Shown here one piece after another: positions 25,699 through 38,154 of a stretch of DNA of 51,307 nt (positions within the stretch are counted from its first letter, which is position 1; every line of letters starts with the position of its first letter). Origin of the DNA: an uncultured Bacteroidales bacterium (GTDB lineage Bacteria > Bacteroidota > Bacteroidia > Bacteroidales > JAFGXI01); contig CAMZKE010000093.1 in assembly GCA_947311115.1 (NCBI GenBank), positions 1 to 51,307 on the forward strand, read 5' to 3'. Under the pieces are notes generated by a model, which saw only the letters and a list, made by a program, of their open reading frames with translations, was not told the DNA's origin and searched no databases. The position numbers and the translations under genes are program-made.

Positions 25699-27117
25699 TT
25701 ATTTTTGTTTTAGCATGGCTTTAATCTTATCGAAAAAGACAAAATAAGCTATAACCGTTAAAATTAATACAAATATAGCTTTAATAATTATAGTTTTTAT
25801 TAAAGAAAGTTCTATTAAATAAAAAATCCATTGTATGGCTATTGCTATAATTACTACAGCAAATATATTTAACCATTTTGTTTTAATGTGATAGTATTTT
25901 TTTGCGTAAAAGTATTTTACACCGGCAAATATCATAAAAGATAATATAGTGGCATAGGCAGCACCATATATGCCATAAACGGGTATTAACAAATAGTTTA
26001 GAATAATATTTACAACTGCACTTGCCAAAACAATAAACATAACTACTGTTGTTTTCTTTTTTTGATAGATAGACAAATTGAAAAGCCCTGCTATTTGACT
26101 TATTAAATAGGCAAAAGAAATTAAATATACTATTTTGTATGCTTCTAAATAAGCCGGTTTAAAAAGCAATTGCATTAGTTCGCGTGCAAAAAAGCTAATC
26201 ATAAAAATAATAAAAATTAAAGCATAGATATAAGTTGTGCTGTATTTAGAAAGTTTAGCTTTTGCTTCAACCTGATTATCGGAACTTGCTAAGCGGTAAA
26301 ACACAGGATTATAAGCCATGTTAAAAGCACCTGCAACAATTAAAACCAAACCTGCAATTCTATAACCCAGCGAATAAATTCCAACTTCCGACATAGAAAA
26401 ATAATGCTCAACAAATATTCTGTCGGATAGGTTTAGTATCCATGCCGAAAGTAATGAGGGAATCATGGGTAAACTGTATTTTAAGCTGTTTTTTAAATAT
26501 TCGAAATTAAATTTAAAATTAATAGCTTTTATGGCAATGTAAATAAATACGGGTAAGGTAATAAGATTGCCTAACATTAAGCCTTGTAACCAACCGCTTG
26601 CTCCGGCTTTTGCGAAAACCACAAAATACAACACAAAGCCTGTATTTGCCACAAATTGCAATAAAGAAAGCGAAATAAAATGGACTGCTTTTTCGTTTAT
26701 TTGATAATAAATTTTAGGTATTATTGAATATATAGAGAAAAACGAAGTTAATATAGCAAACGAATAGTAGGGGTAAAAATCGATTGTTGAATATATTTGA
26801 CTTACCAAATTGTTAAAAACAAACAGAGAAGCTAATATTAAAACAGATATAGCAAATAAAGAAATAACTATAGTGCTTAAATATGTTTTTTTGTCTTCGT
26901 CGGTCTTGTAATCAAAATATAAACGATATACAGAACGGTCAACTGCCAAAGTAAAAAATATAGCTAAAATTGTAGTTAGCACCTGCATAGACTGCACAAT
27001 ACCATAGTCGGCAGTTGTTAAATATGCCGTATAGATAGGCAATAAAAAAAAATTGGCTATTTGTGGAATAATATTGCCAATGGTATATAATGAGGTGTTT
27101 TTAATCAGTTTGCTCAT
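25699..27117 (-). CDS. Polysaccharide flippase Wzx (oligosaccharide flippase family)
   Basis: Inner-membrane protein of 472 aa with about 12-14 hydrophobic helices and the family start LIKNTSLYTIGNIIPQIANFFLLPIYTAYLT. Internal loops carry the SLPMIPSLLSAWILNLSDRIFVEHYFS region typical of the MOP superfamily polysaccharide exporters. It should flip the undecaprenyl-linked repeat unit to the periplasm for Wzy. Its start overlaps the SGNH hydrolase gene by 4 bp. Confidence 0.93.
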   Translation of the reverse strand: MSKLIKNTSLYTIGNIIPQIANFFLLPIYTAYLTTADYGIVQSMQVLTTILAIFFTLAVDRSVYRLYFDYKTDEDKKTYLSTIVISLFAISVLILASLFVFNNLVSQIYSTIDFYPYYSFAILTSFFSIYSIIPKIYYQINEKAVHFISLSLLQFVANTGFVLYFVVFAKAGASGWLQGLMLGNLITLPVFIYIAIKAINFKFNFEYLKNSLKYSLPMIPSLLSAWILNLSDRIFVEHYFSMSEVGIYSLGYRIAGLVLIVAGAFNMAYNPVFYRLASSDNQVEAKAKLSKYSTTYIYALIFIIFMISFFARELMQLLFKPAYLEAYKIVYLISFAYLISQIAGLFNLSIYQKKKTTVVMFIVLASAVVNIILNYLLIPVYGIYGAAYATILSFMIFAGVKYFYAKKYYHIKTKWLNIFAVVIIAIAIQWIFYLIELSLIKTIIIKAIFVLILTVIAYFVFFDKIKAMLKQK

Positions 27118-27818
27118 TCAAAAAAGTCTTTTAGTTCCGAATAAACAAATGTATTACCTTTTGCATTTGGATGATAGCCATCCGTGAAAATTATCTCATT
27201 AGTTTTTGATGAATCAAGAGGATTGATAGAATTTACAAATGGGTATTTCTTTTCCAATTTATCGTAAACTGCGTTATACTTTATTACATTTTTTATTATT
27301 TCCGGATTTTTATCTACCATTTCTTGAGAAGGTATTGCTATCTTAATAATTATTAATTTTTCTATGTTTTGATTTTTACATCTTTCAAAATAATTGATTA
27401 AATTATCTTCAAATTTTTTTAGACTTACATAAGTATTAGCTGTATTTCTTTTGCGTGTTGTTTTTATTAACTTAATATAAATATTGGCAATCTTTTTGGG
27501 TAGATGATTTACAAGTTTTGTTTCCATTCCTTGTTTTAATAATCGTGGGGCACAATCTACAATACCTAATTGCAGAATAATTATATTTGGTTTATAATGC
27601 TCTAAACAATCAGCTCCAAAAGGATATTTTTCTGCTGTATTTTTATCTCCTCCACCTTCTTGAACTAAAATATTTGTTGTTATTCCTCTTTTAAAAAAAG
27701 AGATGAAATCTATATCTTGAAAATAATGTTTAAGTAAATAAAACCAAGTATTCTCATATTTCACATCCTCACCTCTGGGTAAAGTTAAAGAATCGCCTAT
27801 GCAAAGTATTTTTTTCAT
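27114..27818 (-). CDS. SGNH/GDSL hydrolase family protein
   Basis: Protein of 234 aa with block I GDSLT (8-12) and block V DxxH (D213, H216 in TDGYHP), giving the Ser-Asp-His triad of SGNH hydrolases. The block III residue (LQLGIVD, 82-88) has Val where the usual GxND carries Asn, so the oxyanion hole may differ. There is no signal peptide, so it should act in the cytoplasm, perhaps as an acetyl esterase trimming an activated sugar or lipid-linked intermediate. It is the first gene of a compact run with wzx and the sialyltransferase-like gene, 147 bp behind a repeat-borne promoter. Confidence 0.82.
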   Translation of the reverse strand: MKKILCIGDSLTLPRGEDVKYENTWFYLLKHYFQDIDFISFFKRGITTNILVQEGGGDKNTAEKYPFGADCLEHYKPNIIILQLGIVDCAPRLLKQGMETKLVNHLPKKIANIYIKLIKTTRKRNTANTYVSLKKFEDNLINYFERCKNQNIEKLIIIKIAIPSQEMVDKNPEIIKNVIKYNAVYDKLEKKYPFVNSINPLDSSKTNEIIFTDGYHPNAKGNTFVYSELKDFFE

Positions 27819-28332: not shown

Positions 28333-29169
28333 TTACAAAAATGCTTTTTCTTGTTTTAAAGAAGGAATTAATGTCTTATCGATTTCTTTTGCGAACCCTA
28401 TGGCTTTTTTCTTATTGTTTTCAAATTCAGTATTAATTTTCTTCATTATTTCTTCCGGAACACCTAACTGGATTTTATCAGAATTAATTAATCTAATTTC
28501 GGGTTTATTTTTTAAAATATCCAATACATCAACCAAAGATGGGACATCCTCTGTTTTGAAGCTTTTGTAAATAGTTCTAAAAAATTTGTAATCTTCGGGG
28601 TAATCTAATGTAATTCTTTGTTTTTCGTCGAAAAGAGCATTTTCTACTTGTAATTCTGCCACATTAAAAAAATCGGGGCGGTTGATAAACGGTCCCCATA
28701 TTTCGGTATCAGATTGTTGCTTCATAAAGTTTACAACTTCTAAAGCTTTTACATCGAGCATGTAAGTTCCACAACCAATGGGTAAACCTTTAGTATTAAT
28801 AAAATCGTGTTGCTCTTTTTTATACATATCTACTAATAAACCTGATGTGTAAATTGAAAAGAGAGGGTTATCGGCTGTTATACTTACAAAAGCATCATAG
28901 CCATAATATTTTGCAGCACACAATAGGCGTTCCAATACATCGTCTTCGGAACCTGCATAAAACTGTATTTTGTTAGATAAAGCATTGTTGTAAAGAATTG
29001 AGTCTTGAGTGTTTATAGATGTGCATAATACAATCCCATCAATACCTTTAACCTGTTTTGCTCTTTCTATAACTCTATCTAATACTGTTTTTCCATTTAA
29101 GTCTAAAAGTATTTTTTGTTTTAAACGTGAGCTTTTTAGTCTGGCAGTAATAAAAAAACCTATTTTCAT
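28333..29169 (-). CDS. SpsF-like / acylneuraminate cytidylyltransferase family
   Basis: Nucleotidyltransferase of 278 aa, of the SpsF branch of the CMP-sialate synthetase fold. It has an ARLKSSRLKQKIL start (9-21) resembling the ARxxSxRLxxK loop, GSEDDVLER (73-81) and TADNPL with D100, the likely metal ligand. The last 60 residues are helical and basic. It is the only candidate in the window for making the CMP-activated nonulosonic acid, which classical NeuA/LegF/PtmB proteins do; whether it uses CTP and which sugar is inference. It follows the divergent NeuB by 12 bp, last in the run from YhcH. Confidence 0.8.
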   Translation of the reverse strand: MKIGFFITARLKSSRLKQKILLDLNGKTVLDRVIERAKQVKGIDGIVLCTSINTQDSILYNNALSNKIQFYAGSEDDVLERLLCAAKYYGYDAFVSITADNPLFSIYTSGLLVDMYKKEQHDFINTKGLPIGCGTYMLDVKALEVVNFMKQQSDTEIWGPFINRPDFFNVAELQVENALFDEKQRITLDYPEDYKFFRTIYKSFKTEDVPSLVDVLDILKNKPEIRLINSDKIQLGVPEEIMKKINTEFENNKKKAIGFAKEIDKTLIPSLKQEKAFL

Positions 29170-29181
29170 AATTAATTAGTT

Positions 29182-30177
29182 TTATTCAAAATCGTTACTA
29201 TTTAAACAATGTCCCAAAGTTAAATCTTTTGAAATTTTTTCGCCTACTTTATCTAAAATATTTAATTGTGATAAATCGGAACTTTGCCCTGTTCGTTTAA
29301 ATGTAAAATGTTCTTTTGTGAATTTTTCTCCTTTTTTTATATCTTTAGAAAGAATAGCTGCTTTTTTGTTTGCTCCAAAGGTAGAATACGATTTTTCGCC
29401 TGCGTTTAATTTTAGTTTTGCATCGCCATAGGCTTGTTCTACTACTTTTAACTTTTCGGCTATTTCGTTAAACATTTCTATGCTTATAGCGGCTTGCCAA
29501 TCTATTCTATCTTTGCCATAAACAGTTGTAACATGCTTTTCTATGTATTGCATTCCCAAGTTTGCTCCCAACAATGTAATTAAAATATTATTTTCGTTAT
29601 CCCAAGCGGTATGGTCGGCATAACCGTGTTCGTAATTGGGGTAGAGTTGCATTATTTTTAACACTTTACCAAAATTTATATCTTCGTATTTTGTTGGGTA
29701 GTTTTGGAAACCGTGCATTAAAACCATATTCTTTGTTTCAAAAATACTTATGGCATTTTCTATTTCGTATAAATCGGAACCTCCTACTCCTAATACAACT
29801 TTTGTATCAGAATTAATTTTTAAATTTAGATGTTCAAGTAATTCTATATCGTTAAGGCAAACCGAATGTATTTCTACTATTTCGGGATTGTATTTCATGC
29901 CAAAATCAATGGCTTTTTTGTCGTTAAACAAAAGCATTAGTTTTTTCTTATACTTTAATGCTATATTTAAAACCTCGTCCCATTGCTGTTCTGTAAACAT
30001 TCTATCTACCATCCACTGGTATCCGGGGTGGTCTGTGTGTACATATTCATCTACATCTAAAGAAATATGGAATTTAATAATTTCTGTTTTTGTCTTTGTA
30101 GATATCTCTGTTATTAAATTCTTAAAGAATTCGAAATCACCATCATGGTGCCAAGCTGTTTCTGCAATTAATTTCAT
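29182..30177 (-). CDS. Divergent NeuB-family synthase (SpsE-like) with SAF domain
   Basis: 331-aa protein with the TIM-barrel plus C-terminal antifreeze-like SAF layout of sialic acid synthases. Both metal-binding His positions are kept: ADHT (H189) and IEKHVTT (H215), and the YPTKYEDINFGK loop is recognisable. The N-terminal half is altered: EAGxNHxG reads ETAWHHDG (6-13), KFQ reads KFH (35-37), and the KIPSGE lysine region reads VEIHSVCLND (101-110). PEP and sugar binding may therefore differ from LegI in this locus. It is coupled to the YhcH gene (4-bp overlap) and followed by the SpsF-like gene, suggesting a second, distinct nonulosonic-acid-like route. Confidence 0.85.
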   Translation of the reverse strand: MKLIAETAWHHDGDFEFFKNLITEISTKTKTEIIKFHISLDVDEYVHTDHPGYQWMVDRMFTEQQWDEVLNIALKYKKKLMLLFNDKKAIDFGMKYNPEIVEIHSVCLNDIELLEHLNLKINSDTKVVLGVGGSDLYEIENAISIFETKNMVLMHGFQNYPTKYEDINFGKVLKIMQLYPNYEHGYADHTAWDNENNILITLLGANLGMQYIEKHVTTVYGKDRIDWQAAISIEMFNEIAEKLKVVEQAYGDAKLKLNAGEKSYSTFGANKKAAILSKDIKKGEKFTKEHFTFKRTGQSSDLSQLNILDKVGEKISKDLTLGHCLNSNDFE

Positions 30178-30629
30178 GTCATTTTTATTTTTAGAACAAT
30201 TTTTTTAACCTTACTTTTTTCTTTGTTTATTACACCGGGCAAATGTAAATCGTTTGGAAATAATATTGCAAACATACCAGTGTTAAATTGTATCTGACTT
30301 TTTGCTTTGCTTGTTTGGTACAAAATATAATCTTCTTCTGTATTATAATGGGTATGTATTTTTTGTTGATTAAATAACTCATACTCTATCAATTCCGAAC
30401 CTTCCAAGATATATTGAAAATCGATATAAGTTTTATGAGCTTCCAAGATTTCTAATTTGTTTTCTTGTGTTTCGTATGCATTAACTAAAACAAACATATT
30501 TTCGTTTATTTCGTGTTTGCCCGTTTCCATTTCTAAAAAGTTGGTTTTTTTAATGTATTCTATGGCGTTTTTAATATTTTCCGATACCATGGCATACATG
30601 TCTATGTTTTCTATTTTATCTATTATCAT
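30174..30629 (-). CDS. YhcH/YjgK/YiaL family (NanQ-like anomerase)
   Basis: Cupin-like protein of 151 aa. It has the family motifs EAHKTYIDFQYILEG (H65, D70, Q72), the HTHYN segment (92-96) and FPNDLHLPG (H129). E. coli YhcH (NanQ) is an N-acetylneuraminate anomerase found with sialic acid catabolism genes. Here the gene overlaps the divergent NeuB gene by 4 bp inside a biosynthetic locus, with no nanA, nanE or nanK in sight. An anomerase could supply the anomer needed by the cytidylyltransferase. Assignment to the family is firm; the role here is inference. Confidence 0.88.
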   Translation of the reverse strand: MIIDKIENIDMYAMVSENIKNAIEYIKKTNFLEMETGKHEINENMFVLVNAYETQENKLEILEAHKTYIDFQYILEGSELIEYELFNQQKIHTHYNTEEDYILYQTSKAKSQIQFNTGMFAILFPNDLHLPGVINKEKSKVKKIVLKIKMT

Positions 30630-30817: not shown

Positions 30818-31864
30818 TTAATCCCAATTAATATGAGCAATATCCATTTGAGCTTTATCAAAATCTTTATGTTTACCTATATCTAACCAATAACCTCGAA
30901 TAGGATAATGAATTAGTTTCATATTTTTTGCTATAACATCTTCCATAAAATCGGTTGCATTATAAACTTTGTTTTGGGGAACTAAATTTAATAATTCTTT
31001 TTTGAAAAGATAAATACCTGCGTTGGCATAATGTGTATAGCTTGGCTTTTCTTTTAATGATTTTATATTTCTATCGTCGGTTTCAAATACTGCATAGGGT
31101 AAATTTACTTCATAAGGTATTGATGCAACTAACATATCGGCACTCTTATCTATAAAAGTTTTATAAAAATCTTCGTAATCAATATTTGTTAATAAATCAG
31201 AATTCATGAGCAATATAGTGTCGTTTTTATAATCTTCTATCAAACTTAAAGCTCCTGCTGTTCCTAACATTTGTGGTTCAATAACTGTATCGAAATTGAT
31301 TTCCTGATTGTAAGTATTACAATAATCAATAATTTGACCGGCTAAGTAATTTAATGTTATATGCTGGTCTACAATCCCATATTGATAAAGTCTATCAAAA
31401 TTGTAAGCTATAATTTCTTTATTCCCTACTTTTAATAGTGGCTTTGGTGTGTTTTCTGTCAATGGACGTAATCTTATACCTTCTCCTCCTGCCATAATAA
31501 CTGCATCTATTGGCAAAATAGACTTTATTTCGGTAAAATTATAAATTCGCAAAAGCTGCCCTTGTCTATTTAATAAAGGAACTGCTTTTAATTTTCTTTT
31601 TCTAAATTCTTTTAGTTTAGAAAAATTATCAGCACCATCGGTTAAAAAACTAAAATCTTTAAAAATATATTTTGTTAGTTCATCTTCCAATTCTAACCCA
31701 TTAATTATACCTCTACGTATATCACCATCAGTAAGGGTTCCTACTACTTTTTGGTTTTCATTCAAAACAAAAACTGTTTGTAAAGAAGGTAGAGTATTTA
31801 GCTTTTTCAATGCATCAATTATACTTGCATCTATCGTTATTGTATATTTTAAGATATTCTCCAT
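30818..31864 (-). CDS. ptmE: CBS-domain sugar nucleotidyltransferase (PtmE-like)
   Basis: 348-aa protein with a CBS-pair (about 5-115, including GTLTDGDIRRGI) fused to a GlmU/RmlA-type nucleotidyltransferase: VIMAGGEGIRLRP (122-134), TPKPLL with K141, then LLMNSDLLTN. In Campylobacter legionaminic acid synthesis PtmE makes GDP-glucosamine from GlcN-1-P; the same CBS+NTP-transferase layout and the neighbouring leg genes support that role. The CBS pair may give feedback control by nucleotides. It is flanked on both sides by family 2 palindromic repeats. Confidence 0.85.
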   Translation of the reverse strand: MENILKYTITIDASIIDALKKLNTLPSLQTVFVLNENQKVVGTLTDGDIRRGIINGLELEDELTKYIFKDFSFLTDGADNFSKLKEFRKRKLKAVPLLNRQGQLLRIYNFTEIKSILPIDAVIMAGGEGIRLRPLTENTPKPLLKVGNKEIIAYNFDRLYQYGIVDQHITLNYLAGQIIDYCNTYNQEINFDTVIEPQMLGTAGALSLIEDYKNDTILLMNSDLLTNIDYEDFYKTFIDKSADMLVASIPYEVNLPYAVFETDDRNIKSLKEKPSYTHYANAGIYLFKKELLNLVPQNKVYNATDFMEDVIAKNMKLIHYPIRGYWLDIGKHKDFDKAQMDIAHINWD

Positions 31865-32134: not shown

Positions 32135-32557
32135 TTATTCAGGTAACGCACTAAAAACCTCATTAACAAAAGGCTTCATTGTTTTTGTAATATTATCGGT
32201 ATAAAAATTTATTAAAAGTCCTTGCGGTTTTTTTAATAGTTTCATGTATGTTAGTAGTTGAGCTTCGTGAACAGGTAAAATATGTTCTATTGCTTTTAAC
32301 TCCACTATTATGGTATTGTTGACTAATAAATCTAATCTTAAATCAACTTCCATATCTAATCCTTTATAACTTACAGGAACTTTAACTTGTTGTTTTACAT
32401 TAAATCCTTTTGATTCTAACTCATATTTTAAACATGTTTCGTATACACTTTCTAACAAGCCTGGTCCTAATTCTTTATGTACATCAATGGCACAACCAAT
32501 TATTTTATACGATAACTCTGTTACTTCTTTTTTTGTCATATTTTTATTTTTTTTCAT
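32135..32557 (-). CDS. GxxExxY protein
   Basis: 140-aa member of the GxxExxY family, with the motif at G33-E36-Y39 (GLLESVY) after LSYKIIGCAIDVHKELGP, and a PD-(D/E)XK-like core later (EVDLRLDLLVNNTIIVELKA). The family is frequent in Bacteroidota glycan loci; its function is not established, although the fold suggests a nuclease. It interrupts the nonulosonic-acid genes and is bracketed by family 2 palindromes (32069-32130 and 32555-32609). An internal ATG 18 bp downstream (M7) is an alternative start. Confidence 0.88.
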   Translation of the reverse strand: MKKNKNMTKKEVTELSYKIIGCAIDVHKELGPGLLESVYETCLKYELESKGFNVKQQVKVPVSYKGLDMEVDLRLDLLVNNTIIVELKAIEHILPVHEAQLLTYMKLLKKPQGLLINFYTDNITKTMKPFVNEVFSALPE

Positions 32558-32609
32558 TAAGAAGTTAAGGTAATTGATATTATTTTTATTAATGCATCTT
32601 AATGATTTA
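32555..32609. repeat. Palindromic repeat family 2, degenerate copy
   Basis: Begins CATTAAGAAGTTAAGG and ends CATCTTAATGA, a worn version of the family 2 hairpin. It spans the 41-bp gap between the GxxExxY gene and neuC and touches the ends of both genes. Confidence 0.6.
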
Positions 32610-33705
32610 TATTTTTTATTATTTCAACAATATGTTTTGCACTATTACCACCTCCATAAATATTACAATTTTTTGGTAAAGCACTATTTTCTATATCTTT
32701 TACAGCTTTTAAAATTCTATTTTTTTCAACAGGAACAGATATTATATTGTTAGTTAATATCCTCCCTTTTTGTCTATCTCCTAAATTTATGACCCATTTA
32801 GGAAAGTAAGCCGCTTCTACAAAACCACTTGATGTGTTGCCCAATAAAAAACTTGAATATTTCATGCAAGTTAGATATCCTTTCATACCAAAACTTTCTA
32901 TTAGAATAATATTTTCTTTTCCTTTTGCAAACTGTTCCAACTCATGCCTTATCATTAATCCCATTGTATCTGCATTGGGCATGGTTATTACAATCTGGTG
33001 TTGTTTTTTTAATTCGTCAAATGATTTTATCAATTCTTTTATATAAATTTCATTCTTTTCTAGAGCTACTGTTTCCGGATGAAAAGTTGATAAAATAGTA
33101 GGTCTCCTAATATCTATTCCAAATTTTTCGTAGAATTCTTTTTTCGAAAATAATTCAACTTTTTTAAGATTATCGATACTTAATGCTCCAACATTAAAAA
33201 TTTTATCGGGTTCTTGGTTTATCTCTATTGCACGTTTTTTATATTCATCTGTTGAAACAAAAAGATATTCAGACATTAAAGAAATGCTATGCCTATATGC
33301 ATTATCTATAGCCCCAAGAGTAGTTTCTCCTGCATGCAAATGAGCAATTTTAATATTAAAAGGGGTCGCTGCAGAAACAGCAGCAAACATTTCATATCTA
33401 TCGCCTAATGCAAAAACCAAATCTAAATTATTGTTAGCCCAGAAGTCAGAGAATTTATCTACGGTTAAAGCCATCGCCTTAGCAATATCTCTTGCGGTAT
33501 CGCCTTGTGGAATGGTTTTTAATTTATATTTTACTTTAAAACCGGAATTAATTATTTCTTGAATAGTATATCCATGTTTCTCAGATACATGCGTTCCAAA
33601 AGCAATTATTTCAATTTCAAAAAATCTATCATTCGCTAACTCTTTTAATAAAGGTAAATATATCCCAAAATCAGCTCTTGTACTTGTTAATATTCCTATT
33701 TTCAT
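32599..33705 (-). CDS. legG: Hydrolysing UDP-sugar 2-epimerase (NeuC/LegG)
   Basis: 368-aa hydrolysing epimerase of the NeuC family: start MKIGILTSTRADFGIYLPLL, then FALGDRYEMFAAV, HLHAGETTLGAIDNAYRHSIS and LLGNTSSGFVEAA near the C-terminus. It removes UDP and inverts C2 of the diacetamido-trideoxy-glucose intermediate, giving the free mannose-configured sugar for LegI. LegG fits better than NeuC because legB, legC and the NeuD-like acetyltransferase lie just upstream, whereas plain sialic acid synthesis needs none of them. Palindromic repeats sit on both sides. Confidence 0.9.
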   Translation of the reverse strand: MKIGILTSTRADFGIYLPLLKELANDRFFEIEIIAFGTHVSEKHGYTIQEIINSGFKVKYKLKTIPQGDTARDIAKAMALTVDKFSDFWANNNLDLVFALGDRYEMFAAVSAATPFNIKIAHLHAGETTLGAIDNAYRHSISLMSEYLFVSTDEYKKRAIEINQEPDKIFNVGALSIDNLKKVELFSKKEFYEKFGIDIRRPTILSTFHPETVALEKNEIYIKELIKSFDELKKQHQIVITMPNADTMGLMIRHELEQFAKGKENIILIESFGMKGYLTCMKYSSFLLGNTSSGFVEAAYFPKWVINLGDRQKGRILTNNIISVPVEKNRILKAVKDIENSALPKNCNIYGGGNSAKHIVEIIKNINH

Positions 33706-33790: not shown

Positions 33791-34795
33791 TTATAAGGTT
33801 ATCAAATCATCTTCATTAAAATCTTTCTTAGCAGTTTCTCCAATTATTTCATCCCAACGCATAGGCGAAATTCCAGTTCCCGGTCGTTTAACCGTAATAT
33901 TTTCGTCTGTAAAGATAGTGCCTTTTTTAATATTTTGTTTAGCTACTATACTTTTTCTGGCTATTGCAATATTTTTAGTTTCAGATGGTGAGGGTTCTTT
34001 TATCCCGTTTCCCATTGCTTGTTCTATATTTCTGATTACTTTAACCATTGCAATTAATTCATCAGGTTCTAAACTTGCTTTATGGTCGGGACCTTCCATT
34101 GTTTTGTCAAGAGTAAAATGCTTTTCTATTACTGTTGCACCCATTGCAACTGCGGCGATATCCACTTCTATACCATTGGTATGGTCGGAATAGCCTATTT
34201 TTACACCAAATTCATCTCTAATAGTAAGCATGGCTTTTAGATTTACATCCTGCATTGGTGTTGGGTACTCTGTATTTGCATGAAGAATTGTTATTTGCTT
34301 TTTTTGCAATCCGTTGTTTAATAAAACTTGCAGAGCATCAGCAATTTCTTGTATATTAGCCATACCTGTTGACATAATTACGGGTAGTTTTTTACTTGCT
34401 ATTTTTTTTAAATATGGATAATTTGTTATTTCGCCAGACGGTATTTTATATAATGGTATTTTTAATTCGTAAAGCAAATCGATACTTTCTAAGTCGAATG
34501 GTGTAGAAAGAAACATAATGTTTTTTTTATTGCAATAATCAATAAGTTCGATATGTGCGTTTTTGTCTAGTTCAAGCTTTTTTATCATATCAAACTGGCT
34601 TTCGTCTGCATCGGTAGTCTGTTTTTGATAATCTGCTTTTTTTGCATTTTTCGATATTGCTAATTCAGCTTTGAATGTCTGAAACTTCACATAATCTACG
34701 CCTGCTTTTACTGCTACATCAATAAGTTTTTTTGCTAATTCGATACTTCCGTTGTGGTTTACACCTGCCTCTGCTATAATAATTGTTTTATCCAT
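33791..34795 (-). CDS. legI: Legionaminic acid / N-acetylneuraminate synthase (NeuB family)
   Basis: Condenses the 2,4-diacetamido-trideoxy-mannose with PEP to make the nine-carbon acid. The 334-aa protein keeps the full NeuB signature: EAGVNHNG (9-16), VKFQT (36-40), FLSTPFD, YKIPSGEITNYP, MSTGMA, LHANTEYPTP, IGYSDHT, EKHFTLD, and a C-terminal SAF domain (IVAKQNIKKGTIF...RPGTGISP). Its intact active site contrasts with the divergent paralog at 29182-30177. The family 2 repeats lie directly on both sides. Confidence 0.93.
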   Translation of the reverse strand: MDKTIIIAEAGVNHNGSIELAKKLIDVAVKAGVDYVKFQTFKAELAISKNAKKADYQKQTTDADESQFDMIKKLELDKNAHIELIDYCNKKNIMFLSTPFDLESIDLLYELKIPLYKIPSGEITNYPYLKKIASKKLPVIMSTGMANIQEIADALQVLLNNGLQKKQITILHANTEYPTPMQDVNLKAMLTIRDEFGVKIGYSDHTNGIEVDIAAVAMGATVIEKHFTLDKTMEGPDHKASLEPDELIAMVKVIRNIEQAMGNGIKEPSPSETKNIAIARKSIVAKQNIKKGTIFTDENITVKRPGTGISPMRWDEIIGETAKKDFNEDDLITL

Positions 34796-35070: not shown

Positions 35071-35709
35071 TTATTTTATCTTCCGAGCCGGACTTCCAAC
35101 ATAAACTCCACTTTCGGTTATGTCTTTTGTAACAACTGAACCAGCTCCTATTATTGTATCTGATGTAATGTTTATTGAATGATTTATTACCGTATTACTT
35201 CCAATAAAACTATTTTTACCTACTTTACAATCTCCATTTATAATAGTTCCTGTTGAAATGTGAGTATTATTTTCAATTATAGTATCGTGTTCTATTAATG
35301 CTTTATTATTTATTATACAATTTTCATCAATTTTTGCACCTGTATTCACTATTGCTTGATGCATTATAATAGTGCCGTCTTCTATTTTTGCATATTTTGA
35401 AACATGTGCTAGCGGTGAAATAATAATAGGTAAATTACCATTATTTGATTTAATTATTTTGAAAAGTTTTCTCCTTAACTGAGGATTACCCAGATGACCA
35501 ATTGTAATTAAAAAACTATATCCTTGTTTTGCATATTTTTTTATGTCATTATCATTTCCAACAACCTTGTACTTTAATATTGAATTGTTTAACTTGTCAG
35601 GTATATCTAACACACCAAAAATCTCAAACTTATTTTCTGTTTCAATTACATCAATACAAGCCTTACAATGTCCGCCACCGCCGACTAATATTATTTTTTG
35701 TTTATTCAT
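35071..35709 (-). CDS. legH: NeuD/PglD-like sugar O- or N-acetyltransferase
   Basis: 212-aa protein with the N-terminal Rossmann-like domain of the NeuD/PglD family (LVGGGGHCKACIDVI) and a C-terminal left-handed beta-helix (SPLAHVSKYAKIEDGTIIMH to IGAGSVVTKDI, ending VGSPARKIK). PglD homologues N-acetylate the 4-amino group of the sugar made by the adjacent dehydratase-aminotransferase pair. That fits LegH in this locus; an O-acetyltransferase of NeuD type is the alternative. Confidence 0.85.
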   Translation of the reverse strand: MNKQKIILVGGGGHCKACIDVIETENKFEIFGVLDIPDKLNNSILKYKVVGNDNDIKKYAKQGYSFLITIGHLGNPQLRRKLFKIIKSNNGNLPIIISPLAHVSKYAKIEDGTIIMHQAIVNTGAKIDENCIINNKALIEHDTIIENNTHISTGTIINGDCKVGKNSFIGSNTVINHSINITSDTIIGAGSVVTKDITESGVYVGSPARKIK

Positions 35710-35765: not shown

Positions 35766-36917
35766 TTAAACTACACTACTTGGTATATTTATAACTCTAT
35801 CGGTTAGCCATTCTGCATTTTCTATATTTTCGCACTGGCAATTTTTAAACATTGGCAAACGGTTCATTAGTTCCCAAATCGGGCGTGTCATTACACCATT
35901 TTTGTTGGTATATTCTAAAAAATTATCGCGTTCTATTCTGTCTTTAAGAATAACTGCATTTAACCAATAGTTCGATTTTGAATTTTCAGGTTCTTTGCAG
36001 AATTTAATATCTGTATCTTTAAAAAACTGCTCATATTTTTCGGCAAGTTGTCTTTTAGATTTTATTATTTCGGCTAATTGCTCTATTTGAGCAACTCCAA
36101 GTGCAGCGGCTAAGTTAGTTAAACGGTAATTATAACCAATATAATCGTGCTCATAATTCCATTTATGCGGAATCTTTGCTTGAGTTGTTAAATGTTTGGC
36201 TAATTTTGCAGTATTCTCGTCATTGGTAATTATCATACCTCCACCACCGGTTGTTATGGTTTTGTTTCCATTAAAACTTAATGTTCCTATTTCCCCAAAT
36301 GTGCCGGTATGCTGCCCTTTATAAAAACTTCCTAAACTTTCGGCAGCATCTTCTATTACAGTAATACCATACTCGTTACAAATTTCTATAATTTCATCAA
36401 TACGAGTAGGATGCCCAAAAGTATGCATTGGCACTACGGCAGCAATTTTTCGTTTTGTAATTTTGTTAATTGCCTCAGTTTTTCCTGTTATAGCATCAAC
36501 TGATTTTATGGTTTTCTGTTCTAAAAATTCTTTTAATTTTTGAGGGCTCAAACCCATTGTGTCTCTATCAACATCAATAAATACAGGCTTTGCTCCGGTG
36601 TATGATATTGCATTTGCAGTTGCTATAAATGTAAGCGGCTGCGTTATTACTTCGTCGTCTTGTTTTACGCCTGCTAATTGCAATGCAATGTGCAATGCCG
36701 CAGTTCCGTTTACTGCTGCCACTGCATATTTTACACCGGTATATTCGGCAATTTTTTGCTCAAATAAATCAACAAATTTCCCAACACTCGAAACAAATGT
36801 GCTGTCAATACACTCATTCAAATACTTTTTTTCGTTACCACGAAATCTTGGCTCATGCAATGGTATAAAGTCTGTTGTATTGTATATTTTTTGTATGAAA
36901 TTTATAAGGTCTTTCAT
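35766..36917 (-). CDS. legC: LegC-type PLP aminotransferase
   Basis: DegT/DnrJ/EryC1-family aminotransferase of 383 aa that puts an amino group on C4 of the 4-keto sugar produced by LegB. It has the LegC-like start with STFVSSVGKFVDLFE, the PLP-ring Asp in EDAAE (D190), and the Schiff-base lysine K219 in SFNGNKTITTGGGG. The 5-bp gap to legB indicates co-transcription. Glutamate is the likely amino donor, from family knowledge. Confidence 0.92.
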   Translation of the reverse strand: MKDLINFIQKIYNTTDFIPLHEPRFRGNEKKYLNECIDSTFVSSVGKFVDLFEQKIAEYTGVKYAVAAVNGTAALHIALQLAGVKQDDEVITQPLTFIATANAISYTGAKPVFIDVDRDTMGLSPQKLKEFLEQKTIKSVDAITGKTEAINKITKRKIAAVVPMHTFGHPTRIDEIIEICNEYGITVIEDAAESLGSFYKGQHTGTFGEIGTLSFNGNKTITTGGGGMIITNDENTAKLAKHLTTQAKIPHKWNYEHDYIGYNYRLTNLAAALGVAQIEQLAEIIKSKRQLAEKYEQFFKDTDIKFCKEPENSKSNYWLNAVILKDRIERDNFLEYTNKNGVMTRPIWELMNRLPMFKNCQCENIENAEWLTDRVINIPSSVV

Positions 36918-36922
36918 TTATT

Positions 36923-38104
36923 TTACATTTTACTATCAAGAAACTTGCCTGTTTCCATATGATTAAAATTAGGTAGCATTAAATTAAACAATTCCTCTAT
37001 TTGTTTCTTATCCCATTTTTTTTGAGCTAACAAATTATTTATTTCTGTTTCAAATTTTTGAAGTTTTGTTTCATCATAATTTAATTCATTTTTTATAATC
37101 CCCAAATTTTGAAATCTATTCATATCAAGTTCCTCGTTTTCTGTAAAAAATTCCTCAAAATCTTTTTCACCGGTAGTATCGCTTTTTGTAAAAAGGCAAG
37201 GCCACTGTTTTTTGTTGGTATTTGTTTTTGCAAAATAACGGGCTTCCTCTTCAGTTTTACAAATGTATGGTTCCAAACCTTTTTGGTTAAGATATTTTAT
37301 TGCTATTTCTGAGAAAGTAATTAAATGTAATTGTTCGCTTAATTTAGGAAAAAATATATCTCTATTATCTCCAAAAATACACGACATTAAACAAAGCTCT
37401 CCGGCTTCTTGCGGAACAACAAAATAGCGACGAATATCGTTAGGTGCAACAATCGGTTGATTTTTCTTTAAACGCATATCAAAACCATGCAATAATGAGC
37501 CATCAGAAAATGCTACATTGGCAAATCGTGCCATTGACACTTCAATCTCTTTACTTCTACGATGCACAAACATTTCCATTATTCGCTTTGATGCCCCCAT
37601 CATATTAACTGGGTTTGCAGCTTTGTCGGTAGAAACACAAAAGTATTTTTTTACATTTTGGTTTATTGCTTGTTGAAGGGTTTTATCTGTATTAAATATA
37701 TTTGTATTTATCATCCTCATTAAAGTAAATACATCTTTTTCGCTTCTTACATGTTTTAATGCTGATAAATTTAAAACATAATCATATTTTCCATCAGCAT
37801 CCCAAAATACATCGTATTCTTTTGACCCAATATCTATGGCAAAAGTTTGAAAATCGCCATTAATATAACCATAAGAACTTCTAATATCTCTTACAAGTTC
37901 AACCATATTATTCTCACTAATATCAACAACATGCAATTTTCTTGGGTTGCGTTTAAAAATTTCTTTTACAACAGCTTGCCCAATGCTTCCTGCACCACCA
38001 AGTACCAAAAATTTAGAATTTGAAACTATTTCTTTTAGTTCTTGGTCTTTGTTTTTAATATCTCCTGTAAATAGTAATTCTGAACGACCTATTAAATTCA
38101 ACAT
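36923..38104 (-). CDS. legB: UDP-N-acetylglucosamine 4,6-dehydratase (LegB)
   Basis: SDR dehydratase of 393 aa that starts the legionaminic acid route. It has LVLGGAGSIGQAVVKEI for NAD(P), LSALKHVRSEKD, and STDKAANPVNMMGASKRIMEMF as the catalytic TDK region, then a long C-terminal part (EEFFTENEELDMNRF). I place the start at ATG 38104 (MLNLIGRSELLF): the upstream in-frame GTG at 38134 lies within the repeat-borne promoter, whose TACTTTTG box sits 19 nt before this ATG. It heads the leg gene block. Confidence 0.92.
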   Translation of the reverse strand: MLNLIGRSELLFTGDIKNKDQELKEIVSNSKFLVLGGAGSIGQAVVKEIFKRNPRKLHVVDISENNMVELVRDIRSSYGYINGDFQTFAIDIGSKEYDVFWDADGKYDYVLNLSALKHVRSEKDVFTLMRMINTNIFNTDKTLQQAINQNVKKYFCVSTDKAANPVNMMGASKRIMEMFVHRRSKEIEVSMARFANVAFSDGSLLHGFDMRLKKNQPIVAPNDIRRYFVVPQEAGELCLMSCIFGDNRDIFFPKLSEQLHLITFSEIAIKYLNQKGLEPYICKTEEEARYFAKTNTNKKQWPCLFTKSDTTGEKDFEEFFTENEELDMNRFQNLGIIKNELNYDETKLQKFETEINNLLAQKKWDKKQIEELFNLMLPNFNHMETGKFLDSKM

Positions 38105-38123
38105 AAGCTTTTTATATTTTATC

Positions 38124-38154
38124 CAAAAGTACACAAATAATTGATAATTGGCAA
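38124..38154 (-). promoter_or_regulatory. Repeat-borne promoter, copy B (legB)
   Basis: Minus-strand TTG (complement of 38152-38154), 20 nt, TACTTTTG (complement of 38124-38131), then 19 nt to the legB ATG. The promoter lies at the end of an AATT-rich repeat whose family 3 arm runs on to about 38225. It probably drives the whole legB-legC-legH-legI-legG series. Confidence 0.75.

Follow-up and report, generated by a model that had tools for sequence, protein, structure and literature searches.

Among the closest described counterparts of the locus analysed here are the legionaminate clusters of the Campylobacter and E. coli O161 type (LegB-C-H-G-I-F with PtmE), which have the same upstream gene set and a comparable activator slot after PtmE. 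This slot holds LegF, whereas our locus has a YhcH gene, a second NeuB homologue, hereafter NeuB2, and an SpsF-like gene in its place. In A. baumannii elaABC and in E. coli O61, a CTP transferase, a Gfo/Idh and an SDR gene stand after PtmE instead of a plain activator; the O61 sugar is 8-epilegionaminic acid (PMC3628348) and elaABC has a like role in A. baumannii (PMC9676051). E. coli O61 differs from our locus in lacking NeuB2, and our run in turn lacks Gfo/Idh and SDR genes. We rejected the possibility that elaABC includes a NeuB-like gene, since E. coli O61 has only the Gfo/Idh, cytidylyltransferase and SDR genes.

An SpsF-type cytidylyltransferase is part of the sps system of B. subtilis (SpsM, SpsC, D, G, E, F), where SpsF is required for legionaminate use (PMC7439481). 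In contrast to our locus, the described pathway has a single NeuB (SpsE), neither NeuB2 nor YhcH, and UDP-linked precursors. An SpsF-like domain has also been proposed as a replacement of NeuA in a Vibrio cluster (PMC7371886). In the 8-epipseudaminate system EpaA/EpaB of A. baumannii, a protein with a CTP_transf_3 domain acts in late nonulosonate processing (PMC12053666), although there on the pseudaminate route, with a fused aldo-keto reductase and with no NeuB-like partner reported. YhcH, finally, is known from E. coli as an "openase" of the DUF386 family, which passes the open 2-keto form of Neu5Ac to an aldolase, NanA (PMC8141875); this partner is catabolic, whereas our cluster is biosynthetic and without NanA. 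We found no description of a NeuB2-SpsF-YhcH set in the searchable literature, which leaves out most subscription papers.

The window, a stretch of 51,307 nucleotides from an uncultured Bacteroidales bacterium, belongs to a genome of 3.53 Mb that is 99.25% complete. The YhcH, NeuB2 and SpsF-like genes form a tight minus-strand run directly downstream of a LegB-LegC-NeuD-LegI-NeuC-PtmE set (Table 1). All three open reading frames of this coupled run lie where the initial annotation had placed them, with YhcH and NeuB2 overlapping by 4 bp and 12 bp separating NeuB2 from SpsF. Matches to NCBIfam and Pfam profiles cover all steps of the legionaminate set up to PtmE, LegI retains K53, T110, K129, S154 and S213, and LegB is 59-74% identical to its counterpart in most other NeuB2 clusters.

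Table 1. Genes of the legionaminate-type cluster and adjoining open reading frames in the window
Feature	Coordinates	Strand	Basis and role
Wzx-like flippase	25699-27117		
GDSL-family hydrolase	27114-27818		
SpsF-like cytidylyltransferase, 278 aa	28333..29169	-	PF02348, AlphaFold fold match, follows NeuB2; predicted CMP-nonulosonate synthetase in place of LegF
NeuB2, NeuB-fold enzyme with SAF-like C-terminal domain	29182..30177	-	PF03102, residue map, AlphaFold, clade
YhcH/DUF386 anomerase-family protein	30174..30629	-	PF04074, TIGR00022; predicted ring opener of the LegI product
PtmE-type CBS + nucleotidyltransferase	30818..31864	-	Pfam CBS + NTP_transferase; sugar-1-phosphate guanylyltransferase, GDP-linked legionaminate route
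GxxExxY-family ORF	32135-32557		
NeuC/LegG hydrolysing 2-epimerase	32599..33705	-	TIGR03568 over cut-off
LegI, canonical PEP-dependent nonulosonate synthase	33791..34795	-	TIGR03569, 527 bits, over cut-off
NeuD-type acetyltransferase (LegH role)	35071..35709	-	TIGR03570 over cut-off
LegC aminotransferase	35766..36917	-	TIGR04181 over cut-off
LegB-type 4,6-dehydratase	36923..38134	-	Pfam Polysacc_synt_2

NeuC and PtmE are separated by the inserted GxxExxY-family ORF; unrelated ORFs also break up the Leg clusters of close relatives, for example a DUF4143 ATPase (L016) and a RhuM-family gene (L020). A scan of the locus for promoters and terminators gave fewer sites than in shuffled sequences.

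The initial annotation saw neither a classical CMP-legionaminate synthetase nor nan catabolic genes. A PF02348 search of the whole genome returned two genes, of which one is the SpsF-like gene and the other resembles KdsB and lies on a different contig. LegF and NeuA are missing; the absence of a classical synthetase is therefore genome-wide. No NanA exceeds the curated cut-off in the genome, the sole match of the DHDPS superfamily scoring 107 bits where 382 would be required. The YhcH of the run is the only DUF386 gene of the genome.

We compared the run with 40 LegI regions of the same order, from genomes or contigs without NeuB2, and with four E. coli clusters. A LegF/acylneuraminate-type cytidylyltransferase is present in 34 clusters, mostly directly after PtmE, whereas 20 non-redundant clusters carry NeuB2-SpsF in this same slot (L040 and L160, apparently one record, being counted once). 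None carries both, and in most comparison clusters PtmE comes before whichever of the two is present. In genome G236, both cluster types occur, one with LegF (L121) and one with NeuB2-SpsF (L018); they lie on different contigs, and each comes with a LegI and an activator of its own. Five PtmE-bearing clusters have neither activator; three of these are cut by contig ends. The other two, L020 (genome G002) and L132 (G326), lack LegF and NeuB2-SpsF even though the contig continues, and the sole PF02348 gene of G002 is of the KdsB type; a missing activator is thus not always telling. Comparative genomics favours a replacement of LegF over an independent second pathway. This comparison shows that, where LegI is kept, LegF gives way to an SpsF-type cytidylyltransferase, with NeuB2 as its obligatory partner and YhcH as a frequent one.

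Among 84,980 species genomes scanned, 22 relatives came up, 21 belonging to the NeuB2 family and one, L045, being remote. Within the order (393 genomes), 55 genomes have LegI and only 5 have NeuB2, and a closely related SpsF is found in exactly those 5; in a phylum-wide sample (n=396), NeuB2 and the SpsF subfamily are present in the same 4 genomes. At the boundary of the SpsF subfamily, profile scores drop sharply from 351 to 186 bits, and NeuB2 ends at exactly this point. The initial annotation had proposed to look for the run in other loci, and there the coupling proved tight: in all 22 loci showing both genes, from several phyla, NeuB2 directly precedes SpsF, with gaps of -8 to 84 bp, and LegI accompanies them in every locus with enough flank, the archaeal ones included. 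Carriers of the cassette belong to Bacteroidota, Balneolota, Nitrospirota, Omnitrophota and archaea, and include the cultured environmental organisms Halpernia humi, Maribellus maritimus and Fodinibius roseus. Phage collections contained no relatives of NeuB2 and plasmid collections no close one (matches of 20-29% only, ordinary synthases where annotated); E. coli DNA gave no match to the YhcH-NeuB2-SpsF run, but its Leg clusters supplied references of the LegF and O61 types.

The SpsF-like protein is a member of the CTP_transf_3 family (PF02348, 66.1 bits against a gathering score of 22.6). Its best matches in NCBIfam are KdsB models, all below cut-off, and its alignment with LegF is confined to the N-terminal third, which does not amount to sequence kinship with LegF/NeuA. 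The AlphaFold model (pLDDT 93) matches best the fold of a Leptospira cytidylyltransferase (6oew, TM 0.77-0.89), followed by CMP-Kdo synthetases. By position and mutual exclusion, on the other hand, it qualifies as a stand-in for LegF. Two further genomes that are near-complete, G555 and G619, have no PF02348 gene other than the SpsF of the module, which leaves it as the one recognisable candidate there for CMP activation. We infer that SpsF activates the LegI-derived acid.

NeuB2 has the NeuB domain and fold (PF03102, 88.6 bits), yet scores far below the equivalog cut-offs (NnaB 108.6 vs 399.65, PseI 87.8 vs 340.25). Its AlphaFold model (pLDDT 93.5) shows a confident barrel with an SAF-like domain and is closest to NeuB and PseI (TM 0.79-0.83). 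In the phylogenetic tree, NeuB2 forms a single clade with 100/99 support on a long stem, separate from LegI, by which a recent duplication of LegI as its source is rejected; it is one old clade that spans Bacteroidota, Balneolota, Nitrospirota and archaea. LegI sequences from NeuB2 clusters are intermixed in the tree with those from LegF clusters, suggesting that the cassette has moved between Leg backgrounds. In a test for co-evolution, the pairwise distances of NeuB2 and SpsF were only weakly correlated (Spearman 0.14, Pearson 0.50), and partners may have been swapped.

We mapped the active site of 20 NeuB2 members, using the numbering of N. meningitidis NeuB. E25, K53, Y186, H215, E234, H236, D247 and R314 are retained in all 20, among them the metal ligands (H215, H236) and the sugar-contacting residues (E25, Y186, D247, R314). 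In contrast, the PEP pocket, judged by T110, K129, G131, N184 and their neighbours, is not preserved, with K53 still present: T110 is changed to L, K129 to E, G131 to H, S154 to G, C182 to G and N184 to Q in 20/20, and S213 to A in 19/20. Positions 110, 129, 131, 132, 182 and 184 surround PEP (PMC7371886). All LegI and NeuB references in the alignment have K129, whereas every NeuB2 has Glu at this position (E102 in the NeuB2 of the window); within the LegI comparison set, K129 and S213 are found in 24/24 and S154 in 23/24. Since nearly all positions of the PEP pocket, including Lys129, are replaced throughout the family, NeuB2 is unlikely to work as an ordinary synthase that depends on PEP. 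The initial annotation did not notice this loss of the pocket, and its term "second NeuB paralog" is probably wrong where it implies a second PEP-dependent synthase. The new residues (E102, H104, H37, Q158, N109) are themselves invariant from Bacteroidota to archaea, so that by its residue pattern the pocket looks re-purposed rather than decayed.

The remote relative L045 (L045:9977-10861) is a NeuB-like protein from Omnitrophota, apparently without an SAF domain. It has H55, H131, G182, Q184, A213 and the motif HGFQNYPT in common with NeuB2 and retains K129 and S154. This mixture suggests that the change was stepwise, with L045 as a possible evolutionary intermediate.

YhcH is a member of DUF386 (PF04074, 139.2 vs 26.5 bits; TIGR00022, 121.9 vs 45.5 bits) and shares E63/H65/D70/H129, a conserved ExH/D/H pattern, with H. 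influenzae YhcH; it stays below the cut-off of the Neu5Ac-anomerase equivalog NF040884 (119.4 vs 160). In profile searches, YhcH was found in 13 of 20 NeuB2-SpsF clusters, compared to 0 of 34 LegF clusters (Fisher p = 7e-8). By analogy to E. coli, ring opening of the LegI product is its predicted role, though not an obligatory one, given the seven NeuB2 clusters without YhcH. The cassette points to a biosynthetic role of DUF386 proteins, which are mostly known from the breakdown of sialic acid.

The NeuB2-SpsF clusters fall into forms that differ in the length of SpsF. Gfo/Idh and SDR genes are present in 6/6 clusters with an SpsF of 249-256 aa (L018, L026, L029, L037, L044, L162) and in 0/12 with one of 263-281 aa; three archaeal SpsF of 237-238 aa also have neither. 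An elaABC-type module, with Gfo/Idh and SDR beside the cytidylyltransferase, is thus absent from the run in the window and present in six sister clusters, which are predicted to yield 8-epimer products by analogy to the similar gene pair of E. coli O61.

We consider it fairly probable that the run provides the last, activating part of a legionaminate-type pathway, which would lead from LegI over YhcH and NeuB2 to SpsF. LegI would make the nine-carbon acid and YhcH would deliver this acid in the open 2-keto form, in the same way as it serves NanA. NeuB2, as a metalloenzyme without PEP pocket, would act on this open form around C2-C4, or hand it on, and SpsF would then make the CMP-sugar for a surface glycan. 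NeuB2 is common to the plain form in the window and the presumed 8-epimer form, which points to an action on another part of the molecule. NeuB enzymes work on the future C1-C4 end of the nonulosonic acid, and we would place the action of NeuB2 there. A PEP-independent, aldol-type epimerisation at C4 would be an example of such a step; it is one option, not a finding. The final product may differ from legionaminic acid itself. The initial annotation had offered completion of the CMP activation of the LegI product, with ring opening or anomerisation as an explicit step, as one of two readings, and this one is well supported by comparison: LegF and NeuB2-SpsF exclude each other in one slot, LegI is always present where the locus is long enough, and YhcH occurs only with NeuB2-SpsF. 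A more specific version, by which NeuB2 is a PEP-independent, metal-dependent enzyme that alters the open-chain acid delivered by YhcH, giving a different nonulosonic acid activated only by the paired SpsF, is tentative and rather less likely than not.

The evidence speaks against the other reading of the initial annotation, by which the run would be a second, independent pathway to a nonulosonic acid. It would take the form of a NeuB2 that is still PEP-dependent with a rebuilt pocket and makes a different nonulosonic acid for SpsF, the run then being a true second module. The NeuB fold with its SAF-like domain, the retained K53 and metal ligands, and the coexistence of several new residues with K129 in the distant L045 could be explained in this way, but the universal Glu at a position that is Lys in all aligned references could hardly be, nor could the retention of LegI where LegF never is, the presence of LegI wherever NeuB2 loci can be checked, or the lack of a second NeuC/LegB/LegC set, for which a profile search of the window cluster gave no match. 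We regard this explanation as quite improbable. NeuB2 might also be a non-enzymatic, structural or regulatory partner of SpsF that binds the LegI product at the sugar site it has kept, leaving SpsF alone to form ordinary CMP-legionaminate. Obligate adjacency to SpsF and the loss of the PEP pocket with sugar contacts (E25, Y186, D247, R314) kept agree with this; yet all mapped residues of the metal site and several of the new pocket are invariant, which is more than binding needs, and B. subtilis makes use of its SpsF with no partner of this kind (PMC7439481), making this alternative unlikely.

Two further explanations have next to no probability. A chance meeting of three unrelated sugar genes would suit a mosaic locus in which the GxxExxY-family ORF separates NeuC from PtmE and some of the gaps are wide, but is refuted by the identical sets of genomes with NeuB2 and SpsF (5/393 and 4/396) and by their adjacency in 22/22 loci across phyla. 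The initial annotation would have yielded to such random co-occurrence combined with a LegF gene elsewhere, and the genome contains no LegF. That YhcH and its neighbours serve sialic acid breakdown might be expected from the nan operons, where YhcH is best known (PMC8141875), but is rejected, as the genome has no NanA over the cut-off and its sole DUF386 gene lies in a biosynthetic run.

Gene-based prediction of bacterial sialic-acid-like sugars relies on kinship to NeuB and NeuA/LegF, a rule broken by this cassette: its activator is not LegF-like and its NeuB homologue, a nonulosonate synthase by family-level annotation, probably does not use PEP. Given the recurrence of the cassette from Bacteroidota to archaea, current assignments may be wrong for a class of surface sugars. 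If the proposed NeuB2 step is true, for example as an inversion of C4 by retro-aldol/aldol chemistry, it would add a new reaction to the biosynthesis of nonulosonic acids.

In the window, the run is followed by genes for a GDSL-family hydrolase and a Wzx-like flippase. Relatives of the hydrolase are found near NeuB2-SpsF in L026, L030, L034, L041, L043 and L160 and are rare near LegF; the enzyme may carry out an O-acyl modification of this sugar.
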